A stretch of DNA of 64,000 bases from Phytoseiulus persimilis (lineage: Eukaryota; Arthropoda; Arachnida; Mesostigmata; Phytoseiidae), in assembly GCA_037576195.1 (NCBI GenBank), contig CM075103.1, forward strand, positions 23,250,001 through 23,314,000, written 5' to 3'. A program made the position numbers and the translations under genes. Of this stretch, positions 3,679-46,722 are shown in pieces (the stretch's first letter is position 1; every line of letters begins with the position of its first letter). The notes under the pieces are model-generated. The model was not told the origin of the DNA, ran no database searches, and was given only the letters and a program-made list of their open reading frames with translations.

Positions 3679-3729
3679 AAGGTGCCCCACCTCGACGGAT
3701 TCTCCGAAAAACAACAGGATGGTGTTCCC
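3679..3729. repeat. 51-bp direct repeat, copy 1
   Basis: This stretch begins AAGGTGCCCCACCTCGACGG and is repeated at 4070-4119 with about two mismatches. The two copies bracket about 340 bp with no recognisable gene, which may mark a small duplication or an insertion. Confidence 0.8.
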
Positions 3730-4069: not shown

Positions 4070-4119
4070 AAGGTGCCCCACCTCGACGGATTCTCCTAAA
4101 AACAACAGGATCGTGTTCC
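4070..4119. repeat. 51-bp direct repeat, copy 2
   Basis: Near-identical to 3679-3729. It overlaps the 3' end of the PIF/Harbinger-like fragment on the minus strand, so the transposase fragment stops inside a duplicated segment. Confidence 0.8.
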
Positions 4120-16438: not shown

Positions 16439-18713
16439 CACTGAGACCTCGTTTAACGCGGTCTCGTTTAGCGCGGTTTCGCTATAACGCGGTTTTTTTC
16501 TAGTCGAAATCATAGAAGCTTCAGTAGGAGTGGGAGCAAGCTTCTATGTGGAGATGTGGGACCGAGAATGAATTATCTTGCCTTGAGTCTATTTTGTGCT
16601 GATTTCCATGTTTTTTTTTGTACCTATTCGAACAATACCGACTCCTGCTGGATCAGGGCGAATTTCACGGGTCTTTTCTCCCGAATCAGCGTCATCGCCG
16701 TTTCGCGTTCAGCTATCGACCGTTATACATAGTTTCGCACTGTCCTTACGCGGATCACATAGTTCCTGTAAGACCAGTTAATCTGGAGGAGATGAAGCCG
16801 AAAAACTCGGCTGGCCCGAAAGTAACGAGGAAAGCTATCGATTTTGAGACGAAGATAGAGGTTCTCAGGAAACTGGACGCAGGACGAAGGCAAGTTGATA
16901 TAGGCTCTGAAATGGGCTTGTCAACGTCAACGATCAGGACTATTCTGACGAACAGGGACAAAATTCTCTCATCCACGCAGTCGAACACCTCAACTTCGGC
17001 GGTGAAGATCACTCGTTCGAGGAGTTCTGCCATGGAAACGATGGAGAGCCTGTTGTCGATATGGATCGACGACGAAATCGAGCGCAACATGCCGCTGAGT
17101 CAAGCGGTAATCATGCGAGAGGCCAAATCCATCTTCGACCGCATTCAATGTCAGAGTGGGGAGACCGGAGAGAAATTCGCAGCTAGCAATGGGTGGTTCC
17201 ATCGCTCCAAAGCCAGACGTAATCTCCATAACGTTACTCTTTCCGGGGAGGGCGCGAGTGCGGACGTTGAGGCTGCCGCGAGTTTCCCTGCCGTTCTGAA
17301 CTCCATAATTCGGGAGAACATCTGTCCGCCCGAGTTGGTTTTCAATGTGGATGAAACGGGGTTGTACTGGAAGCGGATGCCTAAGCGGACCTTTCTGACC
17401 CGCGCGCAGAAGCGAGCACCCGGCTTCAAGGCCGCAAAAGATCGAGTGACACTACTTCTCGGGGGCAACGCAAGCGGCGATCTGAAACTGAAACCACTCC
17501 TCGTGTATCACTCCCTCAATCCGAGAGCCATGAAAGGTGTTTCCAAGTCATCCCTTCCCGTCATTTGGGAAACAAATAAGAAATCTCGGATCACTGGGAG
17601 CATCTTCCAGAACTGGTTCGTTCATCACTTCTGTCCCGCGGTCAGGAGTTACGCGGAATCGAAAAACTTGGAACCGAAAGCTCTACTCCTCATTGACAAC
17701 GCGCCCACTCATCCGAGCAACTTATCGGAGTTGGAAACCTGTCTACCGGTGAAAGTCGTCTTCCTCCCACCAAATACAACTTCATTGATCCAGCCGATGG
17801 ATCAGGGAGTAATTTCGAACTTCAAAGTTCACTATCTGCGGCGAACCTTCCAGAAGCTGATAGATGAAACTGAGGGGCAGGACAAGCTATCCATAATCAA
17901 CTTCTGGAAGGCTTTCAACATCATGGATGCGATCAGAAATATGAACCACGCGTGGCATGAAGTCTCCCCGAACTGTATGAGGGGAGTCTGGAAAAAAATC
18001 TGGCCGAACCTCAACGATAGGGATCTCGTGGACGCCCCGAACGTTGACATCGATGAGTTCGTTCGGCTGACGAATGAAGCAGGCCTTGACAATGTGGACA
18101 CAGAAGACATCGAGGATCTACTCCGAGACAGCAGTGAAGGCTATTCGAATGACGACCTCCTGGAGCTGATGGATGTAGCCGGTGTCGAGGGACCGGACGT
18201 AGAGGGAAGAGGAGAGGAAGGTGGGGAGGTAGAAGAACCTTCGGATCTCAGCACGGGACTTCTGGAGCAGAGCTTGTCCAAAGTCCAGGAGATCATGGGA
18301 GAGCTTCACGAGAAAGATCCAGATCCTGAGAGGAGTTTGAAAGCAAAGCAGGGTGTTCTTGATGCATTAACTTGCTACAGAGTCTTGCTCGAGGAACGCA
18401 GGAGGCTGAAGAGACAGACGACTTTGGATCAGTTTCTCACTATCGCGAAGAGACAGAAGCTATCTCCAGATGAGGGTGGAATGGAACAGCCATGATAGTC
18501 CTGGAGCAAGATGTAGACGTGATCAACTTGTCAAATTATTGGAAGATTCCCTAAAATATATATTCCCAATAAATACATGTTTGTTCATAATAAGCTTCGA
18601 GTTTCCATTCCGTATCCCTATACCGTCTATGTTGGAATGCTCCGGCTCAACGCGGTTTCGCTTAGCGCTCTTCCTCCAGGAACGCATCCACAGCGTTAAG
18701 CGGGGTGAAGGTG
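16439..18713 (+). mobile_element. Tigger/pogo DNA transposon, apparently complete
   Basis: A TA dinucleotide flanks both ends (16437-16438 and 18714-18715), and copy A carries the empty site (GAGAATATGAGAG) at about 12000. The termini are CACTGAGACCTCGTTTAACGC and, reverse-complemented, CACCTTCACCCCGCTTAACGC, with further GTTTAGCGCGGTTTCGCT repeats inside, as in Tigger elements. Its length is 2275 bp with one transposase gene. Presence in copy B only shows that it inserted after the tandem duplication. Confidence 0.95.
16792..18495 (+). CDS. Tigger/pogo-type transposase
   Basis: The frame is open from the first in-frame ATG at 16792 (567 residues); earlier in-frame codons lack an ATG. Residues 1-60 form a psq-type helix-turn-helix (KIEVLRKLDAG..DIGSEMGLSTSTIRTI). 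Residues about 85-150 form a CENP-B-like second DNA-binding domain with NGWFHRSKARRN. The DDE domain has Asp187 (FNVDETGLYW), Asp302 (LLIDNAPTHP) and Asp337 (IQPMDQGVISNFK), with 34 residues between the last two. An acidic tail follows. All catalytic residues are present and no lesion is seen, so it may be functional. It would cut and paste at TA sites in the nucleus. Confidence 0.93.
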   Translation: MKPKNSAGPKVTRKAIDFETKIEVLRKLDAGRRQVDIGSEMGLSTSTIRTILTNRDKILSSTQSNTSTSAVKITRSRSSAMETMESLLSIWIDDEIERNMPLSQAVIMREAKSIFDRIQCQSGETGEKFAASNGWFHRSKARRNLHNVTLSGEGASADVEAAASFPAVLNSIIRENICPPELVFNVDETGLYWKRMPKRTFLTRAQKRAPGFKAAKDRVTLLLGGNASGDLKLKPLLVYHSLNPRAMKGVSKSSLPVIWETNKKSRITGSIFQNWFVHHFCPAVRSYAESKNLEPKALLLIDNAPTHPSNLSELETCLPVKVVFLPPNTTSLIQPMDQGVISNFKVHYLRRTFQKLIDETEGQDKLSIINFWKAFNIMDAIRNMNHAWHEVSPNCMRGVWKKIWPNLNDRDLVDAPNVDIDEFVRLTNEAGLDNVDTEDIEDLLRDSSEGYSNDDLLELMDVAGVEGPDVEGRGEEGGEVEEPSDLSTGLLEQSLSKVQEIMGELHEKDPDPERSLKAKQGVLDALTCYRVLLEERRRLKRQTTLDQFLTIAKRQKLSPDEGGMEQP

Positions 18714-22645: not shown

Positions 22646-23160
22646 TTCAACGAATTATGCCTTGCTGCCGCGGAAATTCATGGATCCAGCCATTCAAACG
22701 GTACACTGGTTCTCGAGAATTCAGCCAATGTACCGAGTCTCGAGGGTGGCGATGCGAGGGGAAGAGTTCGAATTGAAGGAGTAAATGCTGGCGACCGTGC
22801 CCACAGTATTCCTTATTGTTCCATGGTGTGATGAGTGTACCATGGCAAGGTTCAAGCAATGGCTCGCGCAATGGAAGTGAAGAGCCTGCCTTCAACTAAC
22901 AAGGCGGGGTTCGATAACAGGTCGAAAATGTAGACCTGTTTCTCGAGGGTGGCGATTTGGAGCAGAGTTATGGGACCTTTCGGGCCCAGGTTCGAGAGTA
23001 CTATTTGTTTATCATGATAACCTCGACGTCGCTCGGAGTTCTCGAGCGAGCCTCCTGCTTTTTTGGCACGATGGGATCACGGTGATGAACTGTCTCTGAG
23101 TGAGTCGATCGCGCGCCTCGTGCGGGATGCTTTGAATGAAAACTGATTCATTCGAATTCA
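22646..23160. other. Unassigned spacer
   Basis: No gene is seen. The phrase CTCGAGGGTGGCGAT occurs twice (about 22740 and 22945), which suggests a small internal duplication. Confidence 0.4.
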
Positions 23161-23166
23161 AGAAGT

Positions 23167-23560
23167 ATAGCTTTAACCCAATTGTCTACACGGTTATTCG
23201 AGTATGATGCAGCCAGCGACAATTCCCTGTGAGCCTAACAACCATTACTACATCAAGCACGACAACACGGGAAAGGTTATAGCTTAAGCCCAATTGTCTA
23301 CACGGTTATCCTGTTATAATGCAGCCAGAGACAAATCCTTGTAAGCCGTACAATCTTCACTAGACTATATAGAGCCTAAATAGCTTGACAAATCTTAATT
23401 TATCTCATAGACATTGAGGTTATGGCTTAAGCCCAATTGTCTACACGGTTATCCTATTTTAATGCAGTCAGAGACAAATCCTTGTAGGCCTCACAAGCTC
23501 TACTAGACCATACAGAGCTCATAGAACTTCACAAACCCTGATTCATCTTATAGACATTAA
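23167..23560. repeat. Tandem repeat at the left side of the BED-array hAT
   Basis: Three imperfect units, starting near 23167, 23278 and 23419, share the core CCCAATTGTCTACACGGTTA followed by TGCAGCCAGAGACAAATCC. A related phrase, AGTCTACATGG, occurs at about 33170 on the far side of the hAT pair in the same orientation. These are probably subterminal repeats of the BED-array element. Confidence 0.75.
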
Positions 23561-26033
23561 GGGCATACACCAAGCACGGCAACACGGTATTGTAGCTTAA
23601 TCAGAGTCACATCAGGTCCAGGATACCGTGCGAATATATTGTAGAATCAGCTTTCGTAAACAATGGACACTCAAAAGCTCAGTAAGTAATCGTAACGTCA
23701 ATACGTAATTAAATAAACAATAATGAGGAATCAATACGACAGGTCGCAATGCACAAAGTTTATAAGTCCGCACATAACCAGGATCATTTCAGTGCATGAA
23801 CCGAACCAAGACGACTCCAGCCCTTCGACGTCCACAATCCCGCAATCTGCCGGCGACGTCACATCGAGCCATACAACAACAAGACGAGACCCTGTAATAG
23901 GCAGACCAAGCAAGCCACGCAGTGAGCATCGATCTACACAATCACATCTAAACAAGCACAACTAAATGAGCAGAAAAACAATTGTATTTCCCAGCTGGCG
24001 TATGGGAAGGATTCGAACAGACGGACGATACAGAGGTGTAAAATTTGCCACGAAGCAATCAAAACTATTAAAGGAAGCAAGACAAGCTTAGTAACTCACA
24101 CGAAATACCATGACAAACCGAAAAATAAAATTTCAACAGACAGAACACAAGATCCCTTATTCGGACACACGACTGTTCTCACTCACGCTATGAATCGAAA
24201 CGATAACAGCCATCGGACGCCTGCGAATTCAAACAGTTCGCAATCTACAGACATCGTCGCACCCAGCTTAGATGCATCCACAAAACAGGATTCCGAAACG
24301 AACCGACCAACCAAACACCGTAGTGAGTATCAGTCTACAAAGTCACGCATAAATAAGCATACATAAAAATATATGAAACACCAGAATTTTACAGTCGGCG
24401 TATGGGAAAAATTCGACCAGACAGACGACGCAGAGTTGTGGAGGTGTAAGACCCCACGAAATGGCTCACACGAAATGGCACGAGAAAACAAACCAAAGAA
24501 TCATAACAAACGAGACGAAAGAATTAATAATCGCGGGTATGATCGGTCGTCTCAACATACCTGCTAGAAATTTCAATTCACCAGAAATTCAGTTGCTATT
24601 CAAACTAGCCGGCCTCGGACCCGTCAACAACAAAATCGCACGTAAAAGCTGCGAATCTGTAGCAGAGTGAGTATAAATAGCTACATACATAACACATCTT
24701 AAATGATACAAGAAATGGTAATGGGACTTTGATCAGTGCTAGTTTATTGCAGACAAGCCTATAATAAACTGAGGCACGATATTTCAACAATGAAATCATG
24801 CGGGACAACATTTTCAATGACGGCTGACGAATGGACTTGGAAATCCAAACGATTTTCGGGTAAGTCAAAAACAGACACAGGTATTCTACGTAAATAACAT
24901 AGCAACAATCTCATTATACAAACTAATCAATACACAATATCAACCTCTCAACCGTACCACATGGTACAATAGTAACATATATTGTACAGATATCAACAGG
25001 AGTAAGCCTACACTGCTCGAATATCGTCGCAAGTTTCGCATCTCGCTCAATCGAATTAATAGCCCGAATCAGAGATCGAGCAACAGCAGACAACATGCTC
25101 CACATCATCACGGAAAGGATGAATGCAATAGGACTTGACATCACTGATATCGCAGGCCTCACAACGGATGGGGCAAATTCAATGAAGCCGCTCGGCGCAA
25201 TCATGCGAGATGTCACTCGACCAAACCCATTCCAACACCAACTGTGCATTGCACATGGTATCCACCTCGCGGTCGTCGACACTCTAAAACCCAAATCAAC
25301 AGTTCAAGAAACAACGGACGAAGACACACAAGATTGTGTATTCACTGCTACCAACTACGAATATGACGAAGGTACATTTCAATTGTCTTAAACACTCATA
25401 AATCTCAGAACTCAGCAATCAGATCAAATGAATAAAATTACAGAATGCGAAAAAACCGACGAACAAGATGAACAACCGGTATACCAAGGTGACGCCGGTT
25501 CGTTAGTCAGTGAAGTCCGAGACGAAGCCAAAAAATTATACAATTATCCCGTGGCGAACGATGAGCTTGCAACACATGCCACAGAAAACAGCAAACAATT
25601 TAAGATCGTATTCGACACGAAATCAAGATGGAATAGCATTACAAGAATGCTTAGAAACTTCATCGCAAATGTTCCTGCAATGAAAAAATTTTATAGCAAT
25701 AGACGCAAAACTATACCCAATGCACCAACATTTCCATTCACCAAACGAGGAATTGAAGCCACCAAAGAAATCATTTCAGCACTAAGCATAGTAGAGAAAT
25801 TCACAATTCTTCTTTCCCGAAACGACGCCACTTTGAAATCCGCTGATTTGGCACTAGAGGTAAGTGGTACAATTCATTCCACTTTATATACGTACGTATA
25901 ATTCTCATAAAACCAACAACGTTCCAACCAATTCACAGACAATGATTATGGAACTCGATCAGATAAAAACCGAATTCGCAAGGACACTACGTTTCAACCT
26001 ATGTATAAGAATTTTGCAAAGACGCACTACAAT

Positions 26034-29000
26034 TAGACATCATTTCCCGTAGAACGGAGTACGGCAATTCATTTTCCGTACTGGGCCGGTACGGAAATTC
26101 ATTTTTCGGGCCCCCGACCCGAGGATCATCTCTTTGATCTGGAGGCTCTTGAGAAACGTCTCAAGAACCCGGAATATCACTGAAAGATTTCCCCCGTGAC
26201 TTCGGCCAGGAGATCAACGCCTGGAGAACTGATTCCGCGTCGAGCTTCGTACTCGAAATCCATTTCCGGTCATCCGTCGACCACGAAATGAATGAAGCAA
26301 GACATGGAGGACAAACCTAAGCCGAATGAAGCTTGATGGGGATGGTTTCAGAAATCCGATTGCGCCTTGGGATCATATTTTCGAGCTGATTCCGCTGAAC
26401 TTCGAGCCAGTTGACATGGAAAACACACGTTTCCGATTGGGATGGCGCACTCAAAGAGGCCTCCGACAGTAATCATGAGCCGAGTAGAAACAATGGGTGT
26501 AATCTGAGGCATCCGGGAAAGAGAATGACAGAAGAGTTGCTGCCGATAAGTGCCGGAACGTGAGTGAATTGTCAGATAGAAGTTTGAAGTGAGGAGTGAC
26601 TCCAGAGCGACTGAACAAACTGTGTGCTTTAGTGTTCCCTGGATTGGGTTCGGATGTTTCCGTTCTCTGAGATATTGTCAGGAAGCTCGGCTGAACCCCA
26701 GCCAGGCGGCACACTATGGAAGCGGCCACATCTGGAATACAAGAGCGAGGATCAAGTTTCGAGCGCTCTCCGATCAAGCTTTCGGCTCTGCAGATTCGGA
26801 GAGGAGTTGGAGGCGCTCCCAGCAGAAGTATTCCTTGCGGGTTCCAGCTCAAGCGTGTTTCTCCTTACTCTGTGTGTGCGGCCACGAGCATTCTCAGCGA
26901 TGGAAATCGGCAGTGCGACCGGAGACGAGACTTCTCAGAGCTGTTCTGAGGTGTCTGATCCCTCGAGCCTTCTGCGCCGCGGTCGGAAGAGGAAATGGAA
27001 GTTATATTTTTCCGAGGAATCGCTGATTCGCAGAGAAACGCTGCATTTAGAGGAGCTACATGCGAGGAGCCTGATCGATGAGAGGCCGGGAGTAGTGAAC
27101 TAAGCGATATCCTTTTCTTCTAAAGATCCTTCGCATGTGATTAGGGCGGAATTCCCGCACAAAGGCGGCGATGTTTATGAATGCAAGACATGCGCGAAGC
27201 TCATTACGGCAGGCAAGCGCAGCAAGTCGGGTCTCGTGAAGCACAGAACTCGTCACTTGAGGCTTAGTGAAGGAGCGCTACACGAAGACATCAAAGCATG
27301 GCTAGTCGCCAGTATGGTGACGGTGCTCAACCTGCCGTGCCTAGTCTTCGGATCCGTCATCATGCTTATCCTTTCCTGGCTTGCCCGACTCGGGCCAATC
27401 AGTGAGGCTTCGGCGCGGAGCCTCAGTGACAGCGAAGCCGTGTATGTGAGCCCAAGTATTGAGTCTATGATTTCGATATTTGTGGGGTCACATTCTTGCG
27501 ATTATCTTTTTCGCTGTTTTGAGATGAACACGATCTCGGAAGCCGTTCCTTGGCAGGCACCCGATAGACGCTGACGCCGATTGCATAAAATAATTACAGG
27601 AAGGCCAGAGCGCCGATAAGCTCTGACATACGTAGGCTCCGCGAAGAGGGAGCAAAATTCTGTCTGACCGCGGATGAGTGGTCATGGCAGAGGAAACGTT
27701 TTCTGGGTTAGTGTCTTTCAGGGGAGGGAACACGCTTCAAGCTCGATGCGACGAGAGTGACAGCAATTTGTTATGCCTCTTCAATCACCCGTCAAGGCAT
27801 ATATCGAGATTCGCTTCTCACATTCCTTGTTTCAGGCATCACGTTACATCGTTTTTTCGTCCTCCCGAGCCTCGGAGAGAGTTCCGTTGAGCTTCTCTCG
27901 AGGTTTCATGAGCGGGCAACTTCGAGCCACTTGCAGCACGTTCTGGTTGAGGCCCTTCTTGGCCTTGGCTTGACCATTCACCACATCTCGGGACTGACAT
28001 CAGATGGGGCTGCAGTGATGAAAGCGCTCGGGCGTCAGCTGGCCCAGGCCGTTGGCCCCAGGCCGTTCTATCACCAAGTGTGCTTGGCACATGACTTACA
28101 TTTGGCTGTGATGGACACACTCAGGGAAAATGTTGCACTCTACCATCAGTCGCTCGTGCATGAACCCGAACCCGATCGCTTGTGCTTGGTCGGCATCACT
28201 GACGGCGAGGGTGAGATCCCGTGCCGATTCTTGATACTTCAGAATCGTTCCGATATTAACTCCCTCAGTCTCGAGCGGAATATGGAGGATTCACCCCACA
28301 TTCTCGATTGTAGTCAATGTTGTCTTTTCAGCGTCGAATCCCATTGAGGGAGATTCAGAGGATGATAGGCTGTAGTCACCTATGTATCGCGGGTCGGTCG
28401 GCGATTTGGTTCGAAGAGTTCGTGAAGTGTGCCGCACCTTTCATCGAAGTCCCTCTATGAATGACCTGCTCCTCACACACGCCCGAGCTGTTGGCAAGAA
28501 CACCAAACTTGATAGACACGAGATGGAATAGCTCTCTGCGGATGCTTGGGAACTTCGTCGACCACGAAATTGTCCTGCGAAATTCCTACGATAGCGAGTT
28601 CCCTGCCGAAAGCTTTCCGTTCAGAGACAGTTAGATGGCGTCAATTAGAGAGGTGGTCGCCGCTCTTAGCCACGTGGAAGAAGCTGTGATGCGCTTGTCT
28701 CTGAAAAATGCGACGTTGGCGTCGGCGGATATCGCTCTACGAGTTGGTGTTCATTCAGTCCGAGTGTTCCTGTAAATAGCACCGCTTCGTCGTCGGCGGC
28801 GAATAATATGACGATCACCAAATCTTCAGGTGATGATTCGTCTGCTCACCACGGACTCGTCGAGTTTTTCCCATGCGCTCGCGAAGAACCTCGGCACTCG
28901 GCTCCTGCAGAGACGGAGCGTGGCTTCAAGAGCCGCTCGCTTCGTCCACACTAAACAAGAGAACACACCTCTGGATGAGTGGCTCGCACAACTGAGAGAA

Positions 29001-30126
29001 GAGGTTTGCACTTCTCTTGGGCAGTTTACTGACTGACTTCGCACTGATGAATCAAGTTCTCCTTCCCGCCCATCGGCTTTTTGAGGACCTTCATGTCACC
29101 TGCTCCCCAGTCTTTACTGTTGTGTTCTCTCTCGGTTACATGACATTGTCATTTGATCTTCCATGCACAGGTGTCTTCCGAGGGAAACGAAAGGATCACC
29201 CGGTCCTTCCTCCCCTTTGGTGATATTTCCTCGGAGATATCACGGTTCCATGGTGCAGACGGCTCCGGATCCGGATCACTGAAGGCCTTCAAGGACGAAT
29301 ACGAACGTTTCATGGCCACTTTCGGTCCGCATGAAGGAGCGGGAGCTCTTTCAACCAGCAACGAGCTCCCGAAAGCGCTAACCGCAGTGCTGACGACACT
29401 GCAACCGACGAGCGTGCCCGCCGAGCGATCTTTCAGCAAGGCGCGACATGCCCATCGATATTGCCAGGAGAGGCAAGACGACCAGCGTTTCGCCAACTAT
29501 CATTTCCTGAAAGATTTTTACAGCAAAATGAAGCCGTGAGATAAATTCCGCGAGCTCATTGACAGAAGGGGCTCCTGCCCCTCCGATCTCTCACAGCTGG
29601 GTTTGTAACCCGTTCCGGGAAATCCCATGCAACACAAACGCTGCTCGTGGCTGTGCCAATTCCACTCTGTAGTTGAAAGAATCTGGATGCGCCGAAATAA
29701 ATCGATGAAGGCTCAAATTCGTGAGAGGCTCTCATAATCGATGCATGAATAAGGCTGACGTGAAGTCTGTTTTCTGAGGCACTCCTCTCAGGTGTAAATT
29801 TCTCGTAGAGGGTAACAAGAGGAGTGGTCGTTACAGCTGACGGTTCCCCTAACGTTGATCTCATGGCCGAAGTCACGGAAGAAGTCTTTCAGTGATATTC
29901 CGGGTTCTTGAGACGTTCTTCAAGAGTCTCCAGATCAAAGAGATGATCCTCGGGTCGGGGGCCCGAAAAATGAATTTCAGTACCAGAAAGTACGGCAGTT
30001 TAATTTCCGTACCGGCCCAGTACGGCAATTCAATTTCCGTACTTCCTGGTACGGCAATTCAGTTTCCGTACTGGGCCGGTACGGAAATTGAATTGCCGTA
30101 CTCCGCACTACGGAAAATGATGTCTA
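26034..30126 (+). mobile_element. hAT inserted in the BED-array hAT transposase gene
   Basis: The termini are TAGACATCATTTCCCGTAG and, reverse-complemented, TAGACATCATTTTCCGTAG. Flanking 8-mers are ACTACAAT (26026-26033) and ACGACAAT (30127-30134), a duplication with one later change. Inverted repeats extend about 175 bp and include GTACGGCAATTCA units, with extra tandem copies on the right (29980-30090). The element is 4.1 kb. The host transposase frame continues on both sides exactly at the duplication. Confidence 0.92.
26899..29539 (+). pseudogene. hAT transposase with AT-hook-like motif and BED finger (broken)
   Basis: The probable first exon starts MEIGSATGDETSQ and reaches RRGRKRKW, an AT-hook-like patch. 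The BED exon (27137-27390) has YECKTCAKLI..SGLVKHRTRH. LTADEWSWQRKRFLG lies near 27655-27700 before a GTTAGT donor. The catalytic region SGLTSDGAAVMKALG..VCLAHDLHLAVMDTL is at 27985-28120. The RW region (28525) shows a stop and a frame change nearby. The C-terminal dimerisation part LQPTSVPAERSFSKARHAHR ends at 29539. Several lesions are present, so this copy is inactive. Confidence 0.85.
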
Positions 30127-30339
30127 ACGACAATTGTTGCTCGACTTACAAGTAGAGAAACCGAAAACACAAAATTAGACCAATACCTAGGAGAAACAAG
30201 GTTGAAAATTAGTCAAATCGAAAACGGCGAACAAATATCACGAACTTTCATAGACTATACAGATATTAATTCGGAGATATCACATCACGACATACACGCG
30301 TCTGACATCCAGAGCGCATTCAGTCAAAGACTCCCGTGA

Positions 30340-32718
30340 GAGTAACATCGGCTTCCATGCATTCGATGAATTCAGTAGAAAAATAGAGCAATAAACCGTG
30401 GACACGTACACTCAACGATCTGCGGGCAGACCATGCAAACCCCGAAGTGAGTATCAATCTTCATAATCACACATAAACTAGATGAGCAGTCAGAAACAAT
30501 ATAATTTCACAGCGGGTGTATGGGAAGCATTCGAACCAACTGGCGACCCAGAAGTGTGGAGATGTAAAAGTTGCCACAAAGCAATTAAAGTCACAAAAGG
30601 AAGCAAAAGCGGTTTGGTATCTCACACGAAACGCCATGAGGAATCAGCCGAAAACCCAATACCAGCAAACACAAAAGAGCACGCATTCGGATATATGATT
30701 GATCATACCAACTCACAGAATCGAGCAGAGTCCAATAAACGAACATCTGAAATAGGCAGACCGCGCAAGCCCCGCAGTAAGAATCATTCTACATAATCAT
30801 AGATAACAAACGTAACTGAATAATCAGTAAAAACAAATGAAATTTGCAGGTGGCGTATGGGAAGCGTTCGAACCGACAGACGACGCAGAGTCGTGGAGGT
30901 GCAAAACTTGCAACAAGACAATTAAGAGCGTCAAAGGAAGCAAGAGTAGTTTAGTCACCCACAAGAAACTACATGAGAAAGTCAGCGATATAATATCGAC
31001 AGGCGACTCTGAAGAAGTATAAACACAGGAAGAACTAAGCCCTGAACAAAGCTCTGAACCAGACAAACCAATCAAACACAGTTGTAAGTATCAATCCACA
31101 CAATCACACACAAATAAGCTTGACTAAAGTATCAGAAAAAACAATGGAATTCTACAGCCGGTGTATTGGAAGGGTTCGAATCGACATACGACAAGGAGTC
31201 GTGGAAGTGTGAGACATGTCATAAGGAATTCAAAACGAATAAAGGAAGCAGAACAAGCCTAATCACTCACATGAAATGGCACGAGAAAACAACCGACAAA
31301 ATTAGAACAGACGAAACAAGAGACCTTATAATCGCTGGTATGATTCGTAATCTTAACATACCAGCAAAAAACTTCAACTCAGCTGAAATTCAACTGCTGT
31401 TCAAACTAGCTGGGCTTGGTCCTGTGAATGACAAAACCGCGCGTAAAAGCTGTGATTCTGTATCAGAGTGAGTACAGTTATCTGAATATGTAACAGTTCT
31501 ATGACGATATATAACTGTGAATAAGGTAACAATCAGTAATCGACGAACTCCACCTGTTTGTTACAGGCAAGCATCCAGTAATCTAAAACACGATATTTCA
31601 ACATTGTGATCTAGCGGAGCAACATTCTCACTAACCGCTGACGAGTGAACATGGAAATCTAAACGATTCTTGGGTAAGTTAGAAATAGACATCGGTTTTG
31701 AATGTAAATAACACGACTGTATACGATCTCGTCGTACGAACTAATCCGTACGAAATACGAGCACTCAACCGGACAATCTAGTACTATAATAACATAGATC
31801 ATATCAATATTGACAGGAATAACTCTACACTCCTCGAAAACAATACCAAGTTTCGCATCAAACTCCATAGAAATAATGTCCAGATTCAAAGATAGAGCCA
31901 CAGCAGACAACATGGCTCACCTCATAACGAAAAGATTAGAATCGATAGGACTTGGCATCGCAGGTCTCGCAGGCATCACAACAGATGGGGCAAACTCTAT
32001 GGAGCGACTAGGTTCAATCCTACGAGAGACCGCTAGACCAAAACCATTCCAACATCAGCTATGTATTGCACATGGCATTCACCTCGCAGTCAGTGATACT
32101 TTAAAATCAAAAACGACGGTTCAATGAATGTCAGAGGAAGATCCAGAAGATCGTATATTCACCGACGATCAACCCGAAGACGAAGGTATTTTTCAGTTGT
32201 CTCAAACATAGCAAATTTTCGAACTCATTCATCAGGTTGACTGAAACGCAATTTCAGAATGCGATAGAAGCGACGAAGACGAACAAGACACAGAGATACG
32301 TTCAGAAGAACCACCCATCTACAAAGGTATCGCGGGTGAGCTCGTTAATAAAGTCCGGGACGAAGCTGAGAAGTTTTATAACAACCAAGTGATGAAAGAT
32401 CAATTGGCGAATCACAATGGCGAAAATAACAATCAACTCGAAGTCGTGATCGACGCTAGATCAAGATGGAATAGCACGACAAGAATGCTTCGAAATTTTA
32501 TTGCAAATATACCGGCAATGAAGAGTTTTTATAGTAAGAGACGCGAAATCACACCCAATACACCATCATTTCCGTTCATCGATCAAAAAATTGAAGCTAT
32601 TACGGAAATCATCGCAGCATTAGGCATAATAGAAAAATGCACAAATCGTGTCTCCATGAGCGACGCACCATTGAGATCAGCGGATCTAGCACTAGAAGTG
32701 AGTGGTAGATACACCTGA
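30340..32718 (+). pseudogene. BED-array hAT transposase, copy 2, with three BED-finger exons
   Basis: A linker exon ends GRPCKPRS (about 30450). Three BED exons follow, at 30513-30776, 30850-31083 and 31158-31467. Each starts after a CAG acceptor with GVWE or GVLE, has C-x2-C...H-x3-H, and uses phase-1 introns of 60-75 bp. The last runs into DLIIAGMIRNLNIPAKNF and continues with TADE (31639), ITTDGANSMERLG..LCIAHGIHLAV (31975-32095), RWNSTTRMLRNF (32464) and ADLALEV (32690). The dimerisation C-terminus is not found. A TGA interrupts TADEW and another follows SKTTVQ, unless the latter is intronic. The finger array is the striking part. Confidence 0.85.
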
Positions 32719-32780: not shown

Positions 32781-33165
32781 TCCCTGAACCAGTCTTATGA
32801 CACCTAATAACACCATATGTATCCTCAATTAGCCTTATTCAAATTGTCTTCGCGGACCCTCAAGAACAACCACCACTAAGACAATCAAGATTTCAGACAA
32901 CTGAAATAGACTAAGTAGACCACTAAGCTCAAAAATAGACTAAATAGACTACCATAACTTAGCTTAGCCTACACCCCTTAACCAATATTATGATACCTTA
33001 TAACACCATGTGTACCCCTATTAAGCCTAATTCAAATTGTCTTCGCGGACCTTAAAGAACAACCATCACTAAGACAATCAAGATTCCAAACAACTAAAAT
33101 AGACTAAGTAGACTACTATGCTCAAAAATAGACTAAATAGACTACCATAACTTAGCTTAGCTTGA
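32781..33165. repeat. Tandem duplication of about 192 bp
   Basis: Two units (32781-32972 and 32973-33165) share CAAATTGTCTTCGCGGACC and AATAGACTAAATAGACTACC, with about 85-90% identity. They lie at the right side of the BED-array hAT pair and mirror the repeats at 23167-23560, so they are likely subterminal. Confidence 0.8.
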
Positions 33166-33218
33166 GCCTAATAGTCTACATGGTTTATTCATTATAGAGA
33201 CAAAGTAGACAACATCTT

Positions 33219-33241
33219 ATAACCTAACCTAACCTAACCTT
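33219..33241. repeat. CCTAA (telomere-type) tract at the LINE 5' junction
   Basis: Four CCTAA units run directly into GGACCATGG, the first bases of the LINE. The last 15 bp, ACCTAACCTAACCTT, recur after the LINE poly(A) at 39055-39069, so they are a target-site duplication or the two halves of a telomere-repeat target. Confidence 0.9.
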
Positions 33242-35931: not shown

Positions 35932-38510
35932 ACAAGGAGTGTGCACTATCTGTCCCACCCCGATTTTTATGATACATACATGGGCATGTAGGGTGCGTCG
36001 GGGGTAACATAGTGGCGTATGGGACTTTTCCCCATACGGCCCTGGGGCCTAGAAAAATGAAGATGAAATTCGTGAAATCATCTATTTTCATCATCATCAC
36101 ATCTCTTGGCCCCACTCTAAAGTTACCTTCTCATGGTTTTTCGGTCTCGAAACGGGTCAGAATCGAAAGTTCATTCCCAGGCGTATGCGTCACATCGGGA
36201 GACGTCATTAAGAAAAATAATCGAGGACCGATTTAGTATTCTTCTAGTTACAGCCTAAAAAACGGAACGGATGGTATGAGGTGGAGCAAAAGTAGCTTCA
36301 TGGATGGATTCAGTGAATAAAGAATTGGGAACCGAGATGTCTACTCCACATAGGCGGAGGCCCCGCTGGTTGTTCTGACTCACATCGGATCCGACGATCC
36401 TCGCTCTGCCAACTCCACTTGAGATTCCGACGATCTTTCCGCTGATGTCACCAACTTCCATGGGGACGAACACTCATTGTCGGTTCGGTTCTGTTCGTAC
36501 CAGTCAGTGCTCCGAGATTCGTGCTCGTGAATTCTATCAGCGTTTTGCGGAATTTCGGGAAATGCAGCGTGATAATCTCAACGCAAACAGGCTGCTGTTT
36601 CTCATGAAAGAAAAGTTGGCTGCTATGGACCTGAGCGCATTTTCATTCCCGAGGAGCAGCGACGCCATGGCAATACGTATCGTGGATGCTCTGTTCGAGA
36701 CAATGCAAGTTTGCCACGACGAGGACGCGTTCACCATCGAGCGAGATGAAGAACTTTACGAATCAAATGTTGTCGACGAAGATTTCATACCAGTTTTCGA
36801 AGAGCACCAGGAAGGGTTCGATTTTTTTTCGTACGATTATGTTTGCAAAGTGCTCAAATACAACGAAGAGCATCCACGCCACGCCTTCTCCACGCTCAAG
36901 CACCGATTTCCAAGAGTTTTGGATCGGAAATATCTGGCGAGATTCAGAAAATACAGAGACAATCTTGGAACTCGACGGGAACGATACATTCAACTGGCTC
37001 AATTCTGCAAGGAGACTTTTGACACCGCTCGAGCCAGAGGAGACATTGTCCATGACAGTGACATCCGAATCTGGGCTTTGAGTAAGAGCAGAGCCCTAAA
37101 CCTGACGACTTTCACTGCGTCACTTCGTTGGGTCAACAAATTCAAAGAGACCTACCGCATTTCTTCACGGAAAATCACCAAGTTCGTGACCTATCGACAC
37201 CAACAGAACCGCGAAGAAATCCAAAACCAAGCGGTGGAGATGGTTCTCGACAATCAGGATAACGTCTTACCTCACTTCGATCCGACTGAAGTTTTCAATA
37301 CGGATCAGTCTCCATTCAACTACATAGTACATACCGACAGGACCTTGACCCACACCGGCGAACGACACACGATTGCCACCGCGAATTCTCTGAACGCTCT
37401 CACCCATAGTTACACGATACAGCCGATTCTGAGCATGAGCGGCGAGCTGGTTGGGAAGCTGTACGTGAATCTACAGGAGCCGAGCGGTGCTTTCGGCCCG
37501 ATAGTGTCAGCGTCGTTGCCGAATTACCCCAACCTTTTCATAACGTGCTCGAAATCTGGGAAATTGAACAAAGGCCTCGTTCGGACCTGGTGTGAGCACG
37601 TCTTCAGCGATGTCGTCAACCGTCTGCCTTCTCCCAGATGCGTGCTCTACGTGGATTCTTGGGGCGGTCATTCAGATTCCCAATTGTATAGCCTTCCTCA
37701 CAAAGAAATCATGCTCAAGATCTTCCCGAAGGGCGCAACGAGTCTGATCCAGCCCCTGGATATCTACTGCTTCATGCAGTGGAAGTACTTCGCGAAACGA
37801 TTGACGGCACGATGCGCCTACTATGACTATCGTGTGAACCAGCGAAACGACGTCTTGAAACTGCACTCGCTGATCTACAACCAGTTTCAGCACCCGTCCT
37901 TCCGACCGATGTGGCTCTGCGGCTGGCTTGAAGCGGGCTTCCTGGTGCCAGCAATACCGTTTCCGAGCCTATCGGAAAAGCTGTTCTCGTTCGCTGAACC
38001 ATGTTCCAGTTCCGAATGTTCATATTTCCCGTTCATCAAATGTGCATATTGTGAGCGGATCCTCTGTGTAAAGTGTTTCTTCGTGGATTATCATTACCAC
38101 TCAGGTTTTGCTTGATCCGGAACTCTCACTGAATCCATCCATAAAGCTACTTTTGCTCCACCTCATACCATCCGTTCCGTTTTTTAGGCTGTAACTAGAA
38201 GAATACTAAATCGGTCCTCGATTATTTTTCCAAATGACGTCTCCCGATGTGACGCATACGCCTGGGAAAGAACTTTCGATTCTGACCCGTTTCGAGACCG
38301 AAAAACCATGAGAAGGTAACTTTAGAGTGGGGCCAAGAGATGTGATGCTGATGAAAATAGATGATTTCACGAATTTCATCTTCATTTTTCTAGGCCCCAG
38401 GGCCGTATGGGGAAAAGTCCCATACGCCACTATGTTACCCCCGACGCACCCTACATGCCCATGTATGTATCATAAAAATCGGCGTGGGACAGATAGTGCA
38501 CACTCCTTGT
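35932..38510 (+). mobile_element. DDD transposon with 380-bp terminal inverted repeats
   Basis: The arms 35932-36317 and about 38130-38510 are inverted copies with roughly 97-98% identity by eye, starting ACAAGGAGTGTGCACTATCT. They enclose one open transposase frame. No clear target duplication is visible. A TA lies 16-17 bp inside each end, directly outside TCTGTCCC, so the true terminus could be there. The near-identical arms and open frame point to recent activity. It inserted into the LINE. Confidence 0.9.
36445..38115 (+). CDS. Tc1/mariner-superfamily (pogo-like) DDD transposase
   Basis: An open frame of 556 residues from ATG 36445. Residues about 190-245 resemble a CENP-B-type helix-turn-helix (RGDIVHDSDIRIWAL, F-x-AS-x-x-W, YRISSRKITKFV). 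The catalytic triad reads Asp287 (FNTDQSPF), Asp404 (LYVDSWGGH) and Asp439 (SLIQPLDIYCFMQWK), with 34 residues between the last two, as in Tigger. The C-terminus has an unusual C-x2-C-x4-C-x2-C...H-x-H motif (about 529-552), perhaps zinc-binding. A later start, such as the Met at 36562, is possible. It is much more divergent than the Tigger at 16792. Confidence 0.85.
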   Translation: MSPTSMGTNTHCRFGSVRTSQCSEIRAREFYQRFAEFREMQRDNLNANRLLFLMKEKLAAMDLSAFSFPRSSDAMAIRIVDALFETMQVCHDEDAFTIERDEELYESNVVDEDFIPVFEEHQEGFDFFSYDYVCKVLKYNEEHPRHAFSTLKHRFPRVLDRKYLARFRKYRDNLGTRRERYIQLAQFCKETFDTARARGDIVHDSDIRIWALSKSRALNLTTFTASLRWVNKFKETYRISSRKITKFVTYRHQQNREEIQNQAVEMVLDNQDNVLPHFDPTEVFNTDQSPFNYIVHTDRTLTHTGERHTIATANSLNALTHSYTIQPILSMSGELVGKLYVNLQEPSGAFGPIVSASLPNYPNLFITCSKSGKLNKGLVRTWCEHVFSDVVNRLPSPRCVLYVDSWGGHSDSQLYSLPHKEIMLKIFPKGATSLIQPLDIYCFMQWKYFAKRLTARCAYYDYRVNQRNDVLKLHSLIYNQFQHPSFRPMWLCGWLEAGFLVPAIPFPSLSEKLFSFAEPCSSSECSYFPFIKCAYCERILCVKCFFVDYHYHSGFA

Positions 38511-40290: not shown

Positions 40291-43200
40291 TGTAGCGGCC
40301 GCAGGGACCGCGCTCAATAGCCAAGATCAATAGCAATGAGCCATCATCATCAGCCAGAATAAAGTCAGTCTGCTCCACAAGAGTGTGCGAGTCAACAAGC
40401 ACGAAAGCACGTGTCTTAATAAAGTGAACTCTACACTGGTGACCCGGTTACGTAAATTTCATCATGACTGGTGGTAACGGAAACGGTGGCAACGGCAAAC
40501 CCATTCTGCCCCCCGCGTCAACCTCCGGAACGCCGCCAGCAGCAATTCCGCCGCAACAAGTTCACGCTGCTCAGTTGGGCTTAGCAGCCGTCTCGCTAAC
40601 CCTACCAACATTCTTGCCACAAAATCCCGACGCATGGTTCGCCAAAGTCGAGGCACAGTTCAGGTCGGCAAGGATTACGCTTGACGAAACCAAGTACTTC
40701 AATGTTCTCGCAGTCCTTCCGGAGAATGCAGCAATCAAGATACGTGAAATCACCCAGAAGGCAGCATACGAAAACGGCGAGTATGCGAATCTTAAGAAAA
40801 AACTCATCAAGTTCGGACAATCACCTCTGCTGGAACGAATGGATCGTTTGGTTGAGCTGAAACACGTCGGTCACAAAAAACCGTCTGACGTTTTGATCGA
40901 GTTAAATGGCATCCTCCACTCAGCCATCCCAGAGCACGTGATTCCGTCGAACGAGCTAGTCAAGAAAATGTGGTGGTTGCGAGCCATGCCTACCACAATC
41001 CAGCAAAATCTTCTGCCAGTCGCTGAAAATACTCCTCCGGACACCCTCGTGGCGATTGCCGATCGAATGTTTGCTTCGAACCCGCCAGTCGACCACATTT
41101 CCGAAGTCCACAGAGAATGTGCAACATCCGTTCCTTCGGCCGAGTTCGAAGACAGCGAAATCCACATGACTGCTGTGACGAACAGGGCTCGCGGGTATCG
41201 CCGAGCCAAGATCAGCCAACCATTGTTCTGCCGATACCACGCGAAATTCGGGGATCAAGCTAAACGGTGTGCCGTCGGTTGCTCGAAATACACACACCAG
41301 TCAAAAAACGAGTTCCGGTCGGCGCAGTAGCGGCGCTCCAAGCTGACCTTCCGTCGAAGCGACTTTTCGTCATCGACAAATTCACCGGCCGCAAATTCCT
41401 TATCGACTCAGGCAGCGTCATCTCTAGCCTACCTCACGGCAACAACGATGCTCCGTCTACAAGTCGAATTACTCTTCACGCTGCTAACAACACTCCAATC
41501 AAAACATTTGGTGAAAAGTCCTGCATCCTCGACTTGGGGCTTGGCAGGCCAGCAGAGTTCACTCTCACCTTAACTGATATTCGCCAACCAATAATCGGAG
41601 CCGACCTGCTCTCACAATACAACTTGGCTCCAGACCTACGCTCGAAATGTCTCATTGACCTCAACTCCCTCCGAGCCAGTAAGTGCCTCGTGACCTGACA
41701 TCCGTCCATTGGAATAAGCGTTATAGAAGTCACACCTCCGCCCTCGATCTCAACAATACTGGAAGAATTCCCAGAGGTGACAGGGAAACAAGCACCCACT
41801 AGTCAAGTTCCGGCGTCAACCCACCACCATATCGAGACAAAAGGCCGTCCCGTCTCCTGCCAGGTCCGTACGCTAGATCCCAGGGAGCTTGCCGTTGCCA
41901 AGTCTGAATTCGACCAGGTCGAAAAAGATGGAATCGTCCGAAAGTCCAAAAGTGCTTTCGCTTCGCCGCTCCATATGGTGCCCAAAGCCGACGGTTCGTG
42001 GAGACCGGTTGGAGACTTCAGAGCCCTAAACGCCATAACCGTTCCTGACAGATACCCGGTACCTCATCTGGAGAACTTCACATTCAGTCTCGAAGGCTGT
42101 CGGATCTTCAGCTCAATTGATCTGGTGAAAGCTTTCCATCAGATACCCATGGCAGCAGAAGACGTGCACAAAACAGCCATACGCACACCCTTCGGCCTCT
42201 ATGAGTTCCTTCGGATGCCCTTCGGTCTAAAAAACGCAGCACAGTCATTCCAACGCTTCATGAATCTCGTAACTCGCGACCTAGAGTTCGTATTCGTTTA
42301 TCTCGACGATATCCTAGTGGCTTCTCGCGACGAGCAAGAACATGTTTCGCACCTCAGAGAACTGTTCACCCGCCTCAAAGCTTACGGATTAGTCATCAGC
42401 GTCAACAAGTGTCGGTTCGCCACCACGGAACTCAGATTTCTTGGCCACCACGTCACGGCGAATGGACTGTCTCCATTGAAAGACAGAGTGCAGGCCATCT
42501 GCGCATTCCCTCAGCCCACTTCAGTCAAACAGCTGCAACGATTTCTTGGCATGATCAACTTCTACCGAAGGTTTATCAAGAACATCGCACAAATATTGCT
42601 ACCCCTCTATGCCCTCACGAACAACAAAAGGCTAGAGTGGTCCAACGAAGCCTCAGAATCCTTCGAAAAAGCAAAGGCGGCCCCATCCTCATTTACCATG
42701 CTAACGTTTCCCGAGAGGCACGCCAGACTTTCCCTGGCAGTCGATGCATCTGAAATCGCCGTCGGTGCCGTTCTTCAACGCGAGGGAAACAGTTCTAATG
42801 AATGGTTACCGCTAGGATTCTTTTCGAAAGCTCTAGACGAGAGACAACAGAATTACTCCGTCTTCGACAGAGAGCTATTGGCGATTGTGCTGGCGATCAA
42901 ACAGTTCCGATTCATGGTAGGAGGCAGACAGTTCACAGTTTTCACCGATCACAAGTCCCTTACCCAGGCAATCGCCTCGAAAACTGAAAGATCACCACGA
43001 CGGACCAATCACCTAGAATTCGTCTCGCAGTTCACCACCGACATACATCATGTGAGAGGTTCAGAGAACGTCGTAGCTGATACGCTGTCCCGACACAACC
43101 AAATCGACGCCATCATTCGACAAGTTCCCGCGCCCTGGACGATCGAGGAATTGTGTGAAGCACAGAAGCAGGATCCGGAGCTGGCTCAGTTGAAAACTTC

Positions 43201-44500
43201 AAGTACTCTGAAGTCAATCAATGTGTCTCCTACCATCCGTCTCATCTACGACTCCAGCGGATCAAGACACCGCCTCTACGTTCCCTCCTGTCTCCGGCGC
43301 AAAGTTTTCGAGCACTACCAAAACGTCAGCCATCTCAGCAAACGCCCGATGATAAAGCTGCTTGGCCGCCTCTATTTCTGGCCTACAAATGCCCCAGACA
43401 TCAATAACTGGTGCGACACGTGCATCGCCTGCCAGGCTTCGAAGATCACCAGACATACGAAAACCGCACCGCAGGTCATTCCGATGCCCAAATCTCGTTT
43501 CTCACAAGTTCATATCGACCTAGTTGGTCCGCTCACTTCATCGAACGGTTACAAGTATGTCCTCACCATGGTCGACAGGTTTATCCGCTGGCCGGAGGCA
43601 TGCTCACTACCGAACATGGAGACCACTACCGTCGCCTCTGCTTCAATCTCTTTCTGGATTTCTCGTCTTGGCGTACCAGACACTATCACCACAGATCAAG
43701 GACGGCAATTCGAAAGCCATCTCTTCAAAAACCTGAACGATCTCTTGGGCTGCAACCGGATCTGGACGTCGGCGTACAATCCTCGTGCAAACGGTACGGT
43801 TGAAAGGTTTCACCGTCAACTAAAGGACGCCTTGCGTTGCCATTTCGTGGAAACGAACTGGAACGATTACATACCGCTTGTCCTGCTGTGGTTTAGAGCA
43901 ACTGTCAAAGAAGACGTTCGCGCCTCGCCGGCAGAACTCGTGTTCGGCCAAAACATCGCTCTGCCACCCGATCTAAAAGATGAACCGTCCGGGGTCCAAG
44001 TGGACCCAAACGATTTCGTCAGTGTACTTAAAGACATGATGTGTAAAATCAAAGGGCAACAAACTAGACCCGCTCTCAACTCTCAACACTATGTTTCCAA
44101 AGAATTGTTATCATGTGAATACGTTTTCCTACGCACAGATTCCACAAGGAAACCATAACAGAGACCGTATACTAGTCCGTACCGAGTAATAGAGCGTGAC
44201 GATTGTACTGTGAAGTCAGATACCCCTCATGGTCCCACCAGAGTGTCCATACAACGTGTCAAACCTGCCAAAGTGGACCCTAGTCATTTCACTACTGATG
44301 TGCTTCGAAAACGTGGTCGGCCTCCTGAAGGTCGTCACCCACTGGGGGAGGGTACTGTAGCGGCCGCAGGGACCGCGCTCAATAGCCAAGATCAATAGCA
44401 ATGAGCCATCATCATCAGCCAGAATAAAGTCAGTCTGCTCCACAAGAGTGTGCGAGTCAACAAGCACGAAAGCACGTGTCTTAATAAAGTGAACTCTACA
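40291..44500 (+). mobile_element. CsRn1-like Ty3/gypsy fossil, young, with two identical LTRs
   Basis: The LTRs (40291-40435 and 44356-44500, 145 bp, TGTAGCGGCC...CTCTACA) read as identical. After the 5' LTR comes CTGGTGACCC, close to the tRNA-Trp primer site used by the CsRn1 clade. Parts are gag (40464-41330, no zinc knuckle seen), protease with IDSGS (41267-41698), and reverse transcriptase, RNase H and integrase (41777-44158; [31 protein letters not shown]). ACTGGGGGAGGGTAC precedes the 3' LTR. It looks nearly whole with few breaks and is very young. Separate gag, protease and pol frames are common in this family. Confidence 0.92.
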
Positions 44501-46722
44501 CTGGTGACCCGGTTACGTAAATTTCATCATGACTGGTGGTAACGGAAACGGTGGCAACGGCAAACCCATTCTGCCCCCCGCGTCAACCTCCGGAACGCCG
44601 CCAGCAGCAATTCCGCCGCAACAAGTTCACGCTGCTCAGTTGGGCTTAGCAGCCGTCTCGCTAACCCTACCAACATTCTTGCCACAAAATCCCGACGCAT
44701 GGTTCGCCAAAGTCGAGGCACAGTTCAGGTCGGCAAGGATTACGCTTGACGAAACCAAGTACTTCAATGTTCTCGCAGTCCTTCCGGAGAATGCAGCAAT
44801 CAAGATACGTGAAATCACCCAGAAGGCAGCATACGAAAACGGCGAGTATGCGAATCTTAAGAAAAAACTCATCAAGTTCGGACAATCACCTCTGCTGGAA
44901 CGAATGGATCGTTTGGTTGAGCTGAAACACGTCGGTCACAAAAAACCGTCTGACGTTTTGATCGAGTTAAATGGCATCCTCCACTCAGCCATCCCAGAGC
45001 ACGTGATTCCGTCGAACGAGCTAGTCAAGAAAATGTGGTGGTTGCGAGCCATGCCTACCACAATCCAGCAAAATCTTCTGCCAGTCGCTGAAAATACTCC
45101 TCCGGACACCCTCGTGGCGATTGCCGATCGAATGTTTGCTTCGAACCCGCCAGTCGACCACATTTCCGAAGTCCACAGAGAATGTGCAACATCCGTTCCT
45201 TCGGCCGAGTTCGAAGACAGCGAAATCCACATGACTGCTGTGACGAACAGGGCTCGCGGGTATCGCCGAGCCAAGATCAGCCAACCATTGTTCTGCCGAT
45301 ACCACGCGAAATTCGGGGATCAAGCTAAACGGTGTGCCGTCGGTTGCTCGAAATACACACACCAGTCAAAAAACGAGTTCCGGTCGGCGCAGTAGCGGCG
45401 CTCCAAGCTGACCTTCCGTCGAAGCGACTTTTCGTCATCGACAAATTCACCGGCCGCAAATTCCTTATCGACTCAGGCAGCGTCATCTCTAGCCTACCTC
45501 ACGGCAACAACGATGCTCCGTCTACAAGTCGAATTACTCTTCACGCTGCTAACAACACTCCAATCAAAACATTTGGTGAAAAGTCCTGCATCCTCGACTT
45601 GGGGCTTGGCAGGCCAGCAGAGTTCACTCTCACCTTAACTGATATTCGCCAACCAATAATCGGAGCCGACCTGCTCTCACAATACAACTTGGCTCCAGAC
45701 CTACGCTCGAAATGTCTCATTGACCTCAACTCCCTCCGAGCCAGTAAGTGCCTCGTGACCTGACATCCGTCCATTGGAATAAGCGTTATAGAAGTCACAC
45801 CTCCGCCCTCGATCTCAACAATACTGGAAGAATTCCCAGAGGTGACAGGGAAACAAGCACCCACTAGTCAAGTTCCGGCGTCAACCCACCACCATATCGA
45901 GACAAAAGGCCGTCCCGTCTCCTGCCAGGTCCGTACGCTAGATCCCAGGGAGCTTGCCGTTGCCAAGTCTGAATTCGACCAGGTCGAAAAAGATGGAATC
46001 GTCCGAAAGTCCAAAAGTGCTTTCGCTTCGCCGCTCCATATGGTGCCCAAAGCCGACGGTTCGTGGAGACCGGTTGGAGACTTCAGAGCCCTAAACGCCA
46101 TAACCGTTCCTGACAGATACCCGGTACCTCATCTGGAGAACTTCACATTCAGTCTCGAAGGCTGTCGGATCTTCAGCTCAATTGATCTGGTGAAAGCTTT
46201 CCATCAGATACCCATGGCAGCAGAAGACGTGCACAAAACAGCCATACGCACACCCTTCGGCCTCTATGAGTTCCTTCGGATGCCCTTCGGTCTAAAAAAC
46301 GCAGCACAGTCATTCCAACGCTTCATGAATCTCGTAACTCGCGACCTAGAGTTCGTATTCGTTTATCTCGACGATATCCTAGTGGCTTCTCGCGACGAGC
46401 AAGAACATGTTTCGCACCTCAGAGAACTGTTCACCCGCCTCAAAGCTTACGGATTAGTCATCAGCGTCAACAAGTGTCGGTTCGCCACCACGGAACTCAG
46501 ATTTCTTGGCCACCACGTCACGGCGAATGGACTGTCTCCATTGAAAGACAGAGTGCAGGCCATCTGCGCATTCCCTCAGCCCACTTCAGTCAAACAGCTG
46601 CAACGATTTCTTGGCATGATCAACTTCTACCGAAGGTTTATCAAGAACATCGCACAAATATTGCTACCCCTCTATGCCCTCACGAACAACAAAAGGCTAG
46701 AGTGGTCCAACGAAGCCTCAGA
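44501..46722 (+). mobile_element. Second internal copy of the CsRn1-like Ty3 fossil
   Basis: The 3' LTR of the preceding element serves as the 5' LTR of a second internal region. gag (44529-45395), protease (45332-45763) and the first part of pol (45842-46722, through the reverse transcriptase YLDD region) are apparently identical to the first copy. Within pol the sequence changes to another Ty3 family. The tandem form fits recombination between LTRs or an assembly-level duplication. Broken by the junction. Confidence 0.9.

Follow-up and report, generated by a model that had tools for sequence, protein, structure and literature searches.

BED-finger exons of two hAT-type gene copies

We analysed a stretch of 64,000 nt from Phytoseiulus persimilis (contig CM075103.1, positions 23,250,001-23,314,000), hereafter the window; its contig is called C3 in our searches of the assembly (181 Mb, 127 contigs), and coordinates given without a locus name are window positions. 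The window holds two adjacent, damaged copies of a hAT-type transposase gene, copy 1 and copy 2, in which exons for a BED zinc finger are repeated in an array, with all array features on the + strand (Table 1). For comparison we used a sibling locus, L009, at C3:32.09 Mb and 8.8 Mb from the window, and a distant sibling, L010, at C3:23.66 Mb.

A preliminary description of the window had placed five BED-finger exons within 23723-31470, and all five were confirmed with the borders it gave, except that the last finger exon of copy 1 ends at 24666 and not at 24668; the same region also contains the insertion of another hAT element (26034-30126). Each finger exon follows a CAG acceptor and begins two bases ahead of GV(W/L)E codons, and the three cassettes that precede another finger (23995-24322, 30513-30776 and 30850-31083) end one base into a codon at a GTAAG or GTGAGT donor when read in the original frame, as described. 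The three fingers of copy 2 are all open in the exons proposed for them, although a TAA stop (31020-31022) lies within the second cassette, just after finger 2. By contrast, neither of the two fingers claimed for copy 1 is still encoded: with respect to L009, to which copy 1 is about 95% alike, the first lacks 8 nt, which breaks the frame, and from the second 38 nt are gone, which removes the second Cys together with the central part of the finger and shifts the frame as well. In successive exons, two fingers are open in L009 and three in copy 2.

When joined, the six exons of copy 2 form a single reading frame of 574 codons that is free of frameshifts and interrupted by four stops, as against 32 and 41 in the other two frames, and retention of any of its five introns would bring in stops. 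L010 is an open gene of 727 residues with one finger and eight exons, joined at GT donors and AG acceptors, and exon lengths of 310, 107, 369 and 440 nt are common to it and copy 2. This supports the splice model of copy 2, with an agreement that is strong but not blind, the L010 sites having been picked by eye at GT/AG; L009 and copy 1 deviate in part (372 for 369 nt, 416 for 440 nt). Judging by frame and splice sites, the array exons would be joined into one mRNA and one protein chain.

Both window copies are pseudogenes. Besides the damage already mentioned, copy 2 has three further stops downstream and no last exon, and copy 1 breaks off at 30281. L009 is also dead, with frame-changing gaps in exon 2 and in the seventh exon and with GC instead of GT at the donor that follows the fifth; its two fingers are nonetheless open. 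Given that copy 1 has no 3' end and copy 2 no 5' end, and that they are joined near 30281-30396, adjacent damaged copies might mimic repeated fingers through an error of assembly or a local rearrangement. We consider this very improbable, because the fingers of copy 2 differ pairwise at 32, 39 and 46 of 129 bases, and so are not assembly duplicates, and because one gene at L009 holds two fingers.

Sixteen columns, among them C17, C20, H37 and H41, are invariant across the six fingers that are open in copy 2, L009 and L010. A finger profile matched the three of copy 2 with expect values (E) of 2e-26 to 5e-28, but these are among the six sequences from which it was built. The Pfam zf-BED model gave 17.5-17.8 bits on the window fingers (E 0.0035-0.0043, below the cut-off), 21.0 bits on the L010 protein, just above the cut-off of 20.6, and 15.4 bits on finger A of L009, with no match on finger B. 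In a structure model of the terminal finger exon, of low confidence (predicted local distance difference test, pLDDT, 66), the top two structural matches were ZBED1 and ZBED2, with the Hermes BED at rank 5 (weak E-values for these three, 0.26-1.6) and, at rank 10, a chain from a complex that contains ZBED3 (E 0.26-2.3 over the four matches at ranks 1, 2, 5 and 10). When solved structures were searched by sequence with the finger profile, only weak matches came up, among them C2H2 fingers and rubredoxin (best E 0.14). The array copies and L010 carry the N-terminal BED zinc finger expected of the hAT superfamily. At the other end of the protein, Dimer_Tnp_hAT reached 14.1 bits on L010 against a cut-off of 21.4 and had no match in the last-exon frame of L009; copy 2 is without this exon and copy 1 ends short. 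Protein searches found no relative of the copy 2 finger region at E up to 1 (598 candidates), and one relative of L010, from the phytoseiid mite Galendromus occidentalis, among the best 7994 candidates scored.

Because our genome searches scored the best candidates only, the numbers of matches are minimum values, and a second finger may have escaped if it has diverged strongly. We obtained at least 47 matches for the terminal finger, at least 27 for the first cassette and at least 34 for the L010 N-terminus; among the matches listed, two or more per gene occur only at copy 1, copy 2 and L009, and the five assembly matches of the copy 2 array DNA are all at array copies. Likewise, 20 loci of 10 kb drawn from the terminal-finger matches contained one finger in 18 cases, two in L009 and none in L025 (E below 0.5). 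The genome search and finger count that the preliminary description had proposed thus place arrays in three gene copies only. It had also allowed that the repeats might stem solely from rearrangement of this locus; this is contradicted for the two-finger form by L009, 8.8 Mb away, where consecutive exons hold two open fingers, and the three-finger form was found only here.

The AT-hook-like GRPxKPRS patch reported at the ends of several of these exons is present at three borders (GRPSKPR at 23921, GRPCKPR at 30446 and GRPRKPR at 30776), but is degenerate directly before the terminal finger (NRPTKHRS and DKPIKHS in the window copies), where both lineages have a similarly decayed hook (NRPIKHR and DKPIKHS), as opposed to the fresh GRPRKPR of the B1 border. 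Moreover, it does not distinguish the array: 11 of 18 single-finger loci (L010, L015, L016, L017, L019, L020, L021, L022, L024, L026 and L027) have GRP motifs either in the exon of the BED itself or no further than about 450 nt upstream of it, in a count that used a loose pattern with no chance estimate and in which L015/L024 and L017/L020/L021/L026 are near-identical sets and L027 is unconvincing. Because it is present in single-finger relatives, the hook-plus-BED pairing seems to be a family habit rather than a product of the array; L010 had no Pfam AT-hook match at E up to 1.

Origin of the array and constraint on its fingers

Exon duplication in the manner of exon shuffling had been proposed as the origin of the array. 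Our results agree with a multi-finger array built by duplication inside a hAT-type gene, but not with the copying of whole symmetric exons. The L009 cassette exon fuses the first part of a finger exon with a stub and an exon 2 copy. Its linker aligns to bases 10-121 of the 129 of copy 1 exon 2 with a score of 50, which was reached by none of 3000 dinucleotide shuffles (maximum 44) and by none of 76 control windows from the same element (maximum 28). From this match we rejected whole-exon duplication in favour of a tandem duplication with breakpoints inside exons. The first 60 nt of the linker match the region after the terminal finger of copy 2 (1/3000 shuffles). In copy 2, the end of the B1 linker is a copy of the end of exon 2 (0/3000 shuffles), a signal that is gone once the last 24 nt are removed, and this linker also matches that of the L009 cassette (0/300 shuffles).

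The introns were aligned as well, as the preliminary description had suggested, and those preceding fingers match in 10 of 10 pairs (at most 2/1000 shuffles each), with 18/1000 as the lowest shuffle count among 18 control intron pairs. We compared alignment scores, because percent identity is uninformative for these AT-rich introns, which average 0.60-0.66 when shuffled. The linker match and the copied introns together indicate a tandem duplication of DNA whose new joint fell within exons; the 1-1 symmetry of the cassettes is then due to both outer borders being already in phase 1. In a tree of whole units, the four cassette units cluster with support 93/94.

We infer that one duplication preceded the split of copies 1 and 2 and that a second took place in the copy 2 line. 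The first would have run from inside exon 2 to just beyond the finger in the next exon, giving a fused cassette exon of finger, stub and exon 2 copy, and the second round would have brought the copy 2 lineage to three fingers. With old phase-1 borders at both ends, each cassette would be symmetric and the frame would be kept, so that the locus illustrates a simple route to a symmetric exon cassette without whole-exon copying. Together, our results indicate that the locus is probably a dead remnant of a hAT-type transposase family of low copy number, whose module of AT-hook-like linker, intron and BED finger was multiplied by internal tandem duplications of DNA.

A family of domesticated, ZBED-like host genes, in which internal duplication enlarged the BED array before the copies died, would also account for the very low copy number, for array copies in which we found no target-site duplication or inverted termini, and for a relative, L010, that is a single open gene; besides, the multi-BED proteins described in the parts of PMC3606216 that we draw on are domesticated ones. 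We nevertheless regard it as unlikely: two copies share flanking repeat blocks of a kind that hAT ends can carry, the window copies lie amid dense hAT relatives on C3, with L009 elsewhere on the same contig, and three dead copies would in our judgement be unusual for a conserved host gene.

In the transposase family that we favour, the fingers appear to have been under purifying selection. All 15 finger pairs have a protein identity above that of neutral simulation (P at most 0.034), from the weakest pair, finger A of L009 with B1 (P 0.034), to finger A of L009 with B2 (P 0.00075) and B1 with B2 (0/4000). The ratio of non-synonymous to synonymous change (dN/dS, NG86) is 0.06-0.29 in the nine pairs with defined dS and undefined in the other six. 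Other exons are comparable between copy 2 and L009, with dN/dS of, for example, 0.137/1.244 for the part following the finger and 0.195/0.770 for exon 6; the comparison of exon 7 with L010 was left out, as it read out of frame. These values bear on whether the fingers were duplicated by neutral accident in an already dying copy, never translated as an array and uninformative on binding, which would suit a tiny family of three gene copies, all of them defective, with terminal repeats at two places. We find this unlikely as well, since the cassette fingers keep their ligands and an amino-acid identity above neutral simulation between lineages, copy 2 has no frameshift across 574 codons, and L009 and copy 2 share two classes of finger unit (support 93/94).

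A role for the additional fingers is suggested by Hermes, in which, from the sections of PMC10368747 at hand, short subterminal repeats are bound by the BEDs, and the octamer is proposed to bring together enough BEDs to find the left end. L009 has an 18-bp motif at both sides, four times exactly and twice with 1 or 4 mismatches, all in the same orientation, and the window copies have three exact occurrences and one with 4 mismatches (the mismatched ones come without a chance estimate). More fingers per subunit would give higher avidity for repeated subterminal motifs, doing in one molecule the gathering ascribed to the octamer, and the array may have raised the binding valency for subterminal repeats.

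Several results weigh against parts of this account. Direct evidence of the fusion is confined to the L009 cassette and to the 3' end of B1; the B2 linker of copy 2 matches neither exon 2 (1121/3000 shuffles) nor the post-finger region (2578/3000), and the first 60 nt of the L009 linker do not match L009's own post-finger region (377/3000). The support of the cassette cluster is below the tool's mark of 95, and a finger-only tree resolves nothing. The finger-pair tests are not mutually independent, with dS close to saturation. The three array copies that we found are all broken and no live multi-finger transposase was seen, and the one-chain array is predicted from frame and splice sites. Terminal repeats of the array copies were found at two places only and inspection of these copies by eye gave no termini or target-site duplication, which weakens the case for spread by transposition. 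Finally, L010, with its single finger, also lies amid large repeat arrays, which weakens the link between finger number and repeats.

Feature map and surroundings of the copies

Table 1. Features of the two array copies and of the element nested in copy 1 (window positions; ph., phase)
Feature	Position	Strand	Remarks
Copy 1 5' repeats, 143-bp unit	23157-23562	+	exact AATTGTCTACACGGTTAT cores at 23180, 23292, 23435
Copy 1 exon 1 (predicted)	23663-23681	+	ATG + MDTQKL; ph. 1 out
Copy 1 exon 2	23793-23921	+	linker with AT-hook-like GRPSKPR at end; ph. 1-1
Copy 1 cassette exon	23995-24322	+	BED finger A + linker; 8-nt deletion breaks frame
Copy 1 terminal finger exon	24395-24666	+	finger lost; 38 nt absent vs L009
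Copy 1 core exons	24753-25859	+	24753-24859, 25000-25371, 25444-25859; core profile match 24996-25286
Separate hAT element nested in copy 1	26034-30126	+	own single BED at 27158-27262
Flanking repeats of nested element	26026-26033 ACTACAAT / 30127-30134 ACGACAAT		7/8 bases agree
Copy 1 leftover 3' exon piece	30136-30281	+	cut off at start of copy 2; 91.8% to L009 6865-7010
Copy 2 exon 2 remnant	30396-30446	+	GRPCKPR at end; start approximate
Copy 2 cassette exon B1	30513-30776	+	open BED finger + linker + AT-hook-like GRPRKPR; ph. 1-1
Copy 2 cassette exon B2	30850-31083	+	open BED finger; in-frame TAA 31020-31022; degenerate DKPIKHS; ph. 1-1
Copy 2 terminal finger exon B3	31158-31467	+	with transposase core start; 310 nt; ph. 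1 in, 2 out
Copy 2 core exons	31567-32697	+	31567-31673, 31817-32185, 32258-32697 (107/369/440 nt); three stops
Copy 2 3' repeats, 193-bp unit	32782-33237	+	common to L009 3' side; last exon absent before repeats

The 5' repeats of copy 1 are also present at L009, and the assembly search gave eight matches, all at those two loci and none beyond them. An 8-bp target-site duplication with inverted ends was seen for the nested element alone, whose inverted ends are long and whose duplication matches at 7/8 bases; L009 is without insertion at the corresponding site. Its end sequence has at least 44 assembly matches at E up to 1e-10 (best 40 of 180 candidates scored), many of which span only the first ~90 bases. 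At L009, a 31-bp inverted match at the two sides was rejected as terminal repeats, because its 5' stretch belongs to a satellite. This satellite, of 37 bp (L009 3057-3396), has at least 78 matches (best 40 of 133 candidates scored), most of them no more than about 0.46 Mb from where C3 and C4 begin and one towards the end of C3, which suggests a subtelomeric repeat that is also present internally. At L009 3394-3640, an isolated fragment of transposase core (250 bp), with 83% likeness to copy 2 and about 74% to L009's own core, is a trace of another, lost relative.

Upstream of the single-finger gene of L010, positions 1-4372 of that locus hold about 97 copies of a 45-bp repeat, with further copies downstream, at 8589-8950 and 9103-9352, in both orientations. 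The transposase core has at least 112 matches, 12 of which (at 11 places) fall within C3:23.21-23.67 Mb, 0.5 Mb of the 181; there are further groups near C3:30.07-30.57 Mb and C2:6.1-6.8 Mb. The coding strand of the array copies (23650-26040 and 30513-32697; L009 4447-7330) has 38-39% A, and that of L010 24.5%.

Elsewhere in the window, two 15-bp repeat arrays (50345-50448 and 54546-54650), inverted to each other and of 6.9 copies each with 98-100% matches, lie in the interval that separates the BED of another hAT gene (49989-50306) from its core (55011-55300); could they be the ends of an insertion in that gene? Open frames at 16603-18492 (630 residues, also with CENP-B_N) and 36379-38112 have DDE_1 and Tc5-type transposase domains, and we take both to be pogo/Tigger-like. 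Positions 40443-47590 contain two adjoining, near-repeated sets of open frames, the first with reverse transcriptase, RNase H and integrase and the second fragmented. Two more open frames (59809-60438 and 62984-64000) have DUF659, a domain known from hAT-like transposases. Rfam gave no family at threshold within the window.

Comparison with known systems

Within the assembly, a comparison is offered by L010, which agrees with copy 2 in the lengths and phases of four exons but has one BED finger. Outside the species, LOC100905896 of G. occidentalis shows 45% identity over 78% of L010; its gene model begins after the finger and carries PF07727, which we take to be a copia-type reverse transcriptase. 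Plant BED proteins near genes for BED-containing nucleotide-binding leucine-rich-repeat receptors (BED-NLR) resemble the mite array in the reuse of BEDs, some non-NLR proteins having one or two; they differ in being host proteins and immune receptors (PMC7761493, in part), whereas the mite array belongs to a transposase gene with introns and repeated exons for the finger.

Multiplied fingers are known from vertebrates, where ZBED4, ZBED6 and ZBEDX are domesticated hAT transposases with 4, 2 and 2 BED domains; the passages concerned place the BED duplications after domestication and call the ancestral active transposons single-BED (PMC3606216). As in the mite, these BEDs were multiplied by internal duplication in a hAT-derived protein and fingers of the same gene are the most alike, but the mite array is found in an apparent transposon family and has introns between the fingers and AT-hook-like linkers. 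No multi-BED hAT transposon appeared in the literature surveyed, which included parts of PMC3606216, PMC10368747, PMC7761493 and PMC8097297; subscription literature lay mostly outside, so absence is unproven. Within these sources, finger multiplication is known mainly from domesticated relatives of hAT elements, and the array in a transposase gene would be a new form of it.

The domain order after the BED is, we assume, the same as in Hermes. Other points of likeness, as far as the relevant part of PMC10368747 extends, are the N-terminal BED finger and the repeated subterminal motifs, with 8-bp target duplications seen here only in the nested element. The difference lies in finger number: Hermes has one BED per chain and attains its valency through an octamer with eight BEDs, whereas two or three finger exons per gene are found here (PMC10368747, in part). 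A mobile transposon lineage may thus have evolved multi-BED transposases, with BED valency in one polypeptide, that bound subterminal repeat arrays as smaller oligomers, an idea that we put forward tentatively and consider rather doubtful. If it were true, multi-BED architecture would precede domestication, and domesticated multi-BED factors might have inherited, and not invented, their design from transposons that ran multi-finger transposases. A family with two or three BEDs per chain would also be a natural test of the octamer idea put forward for Hermes in the portion of PMC10368747 cited here.

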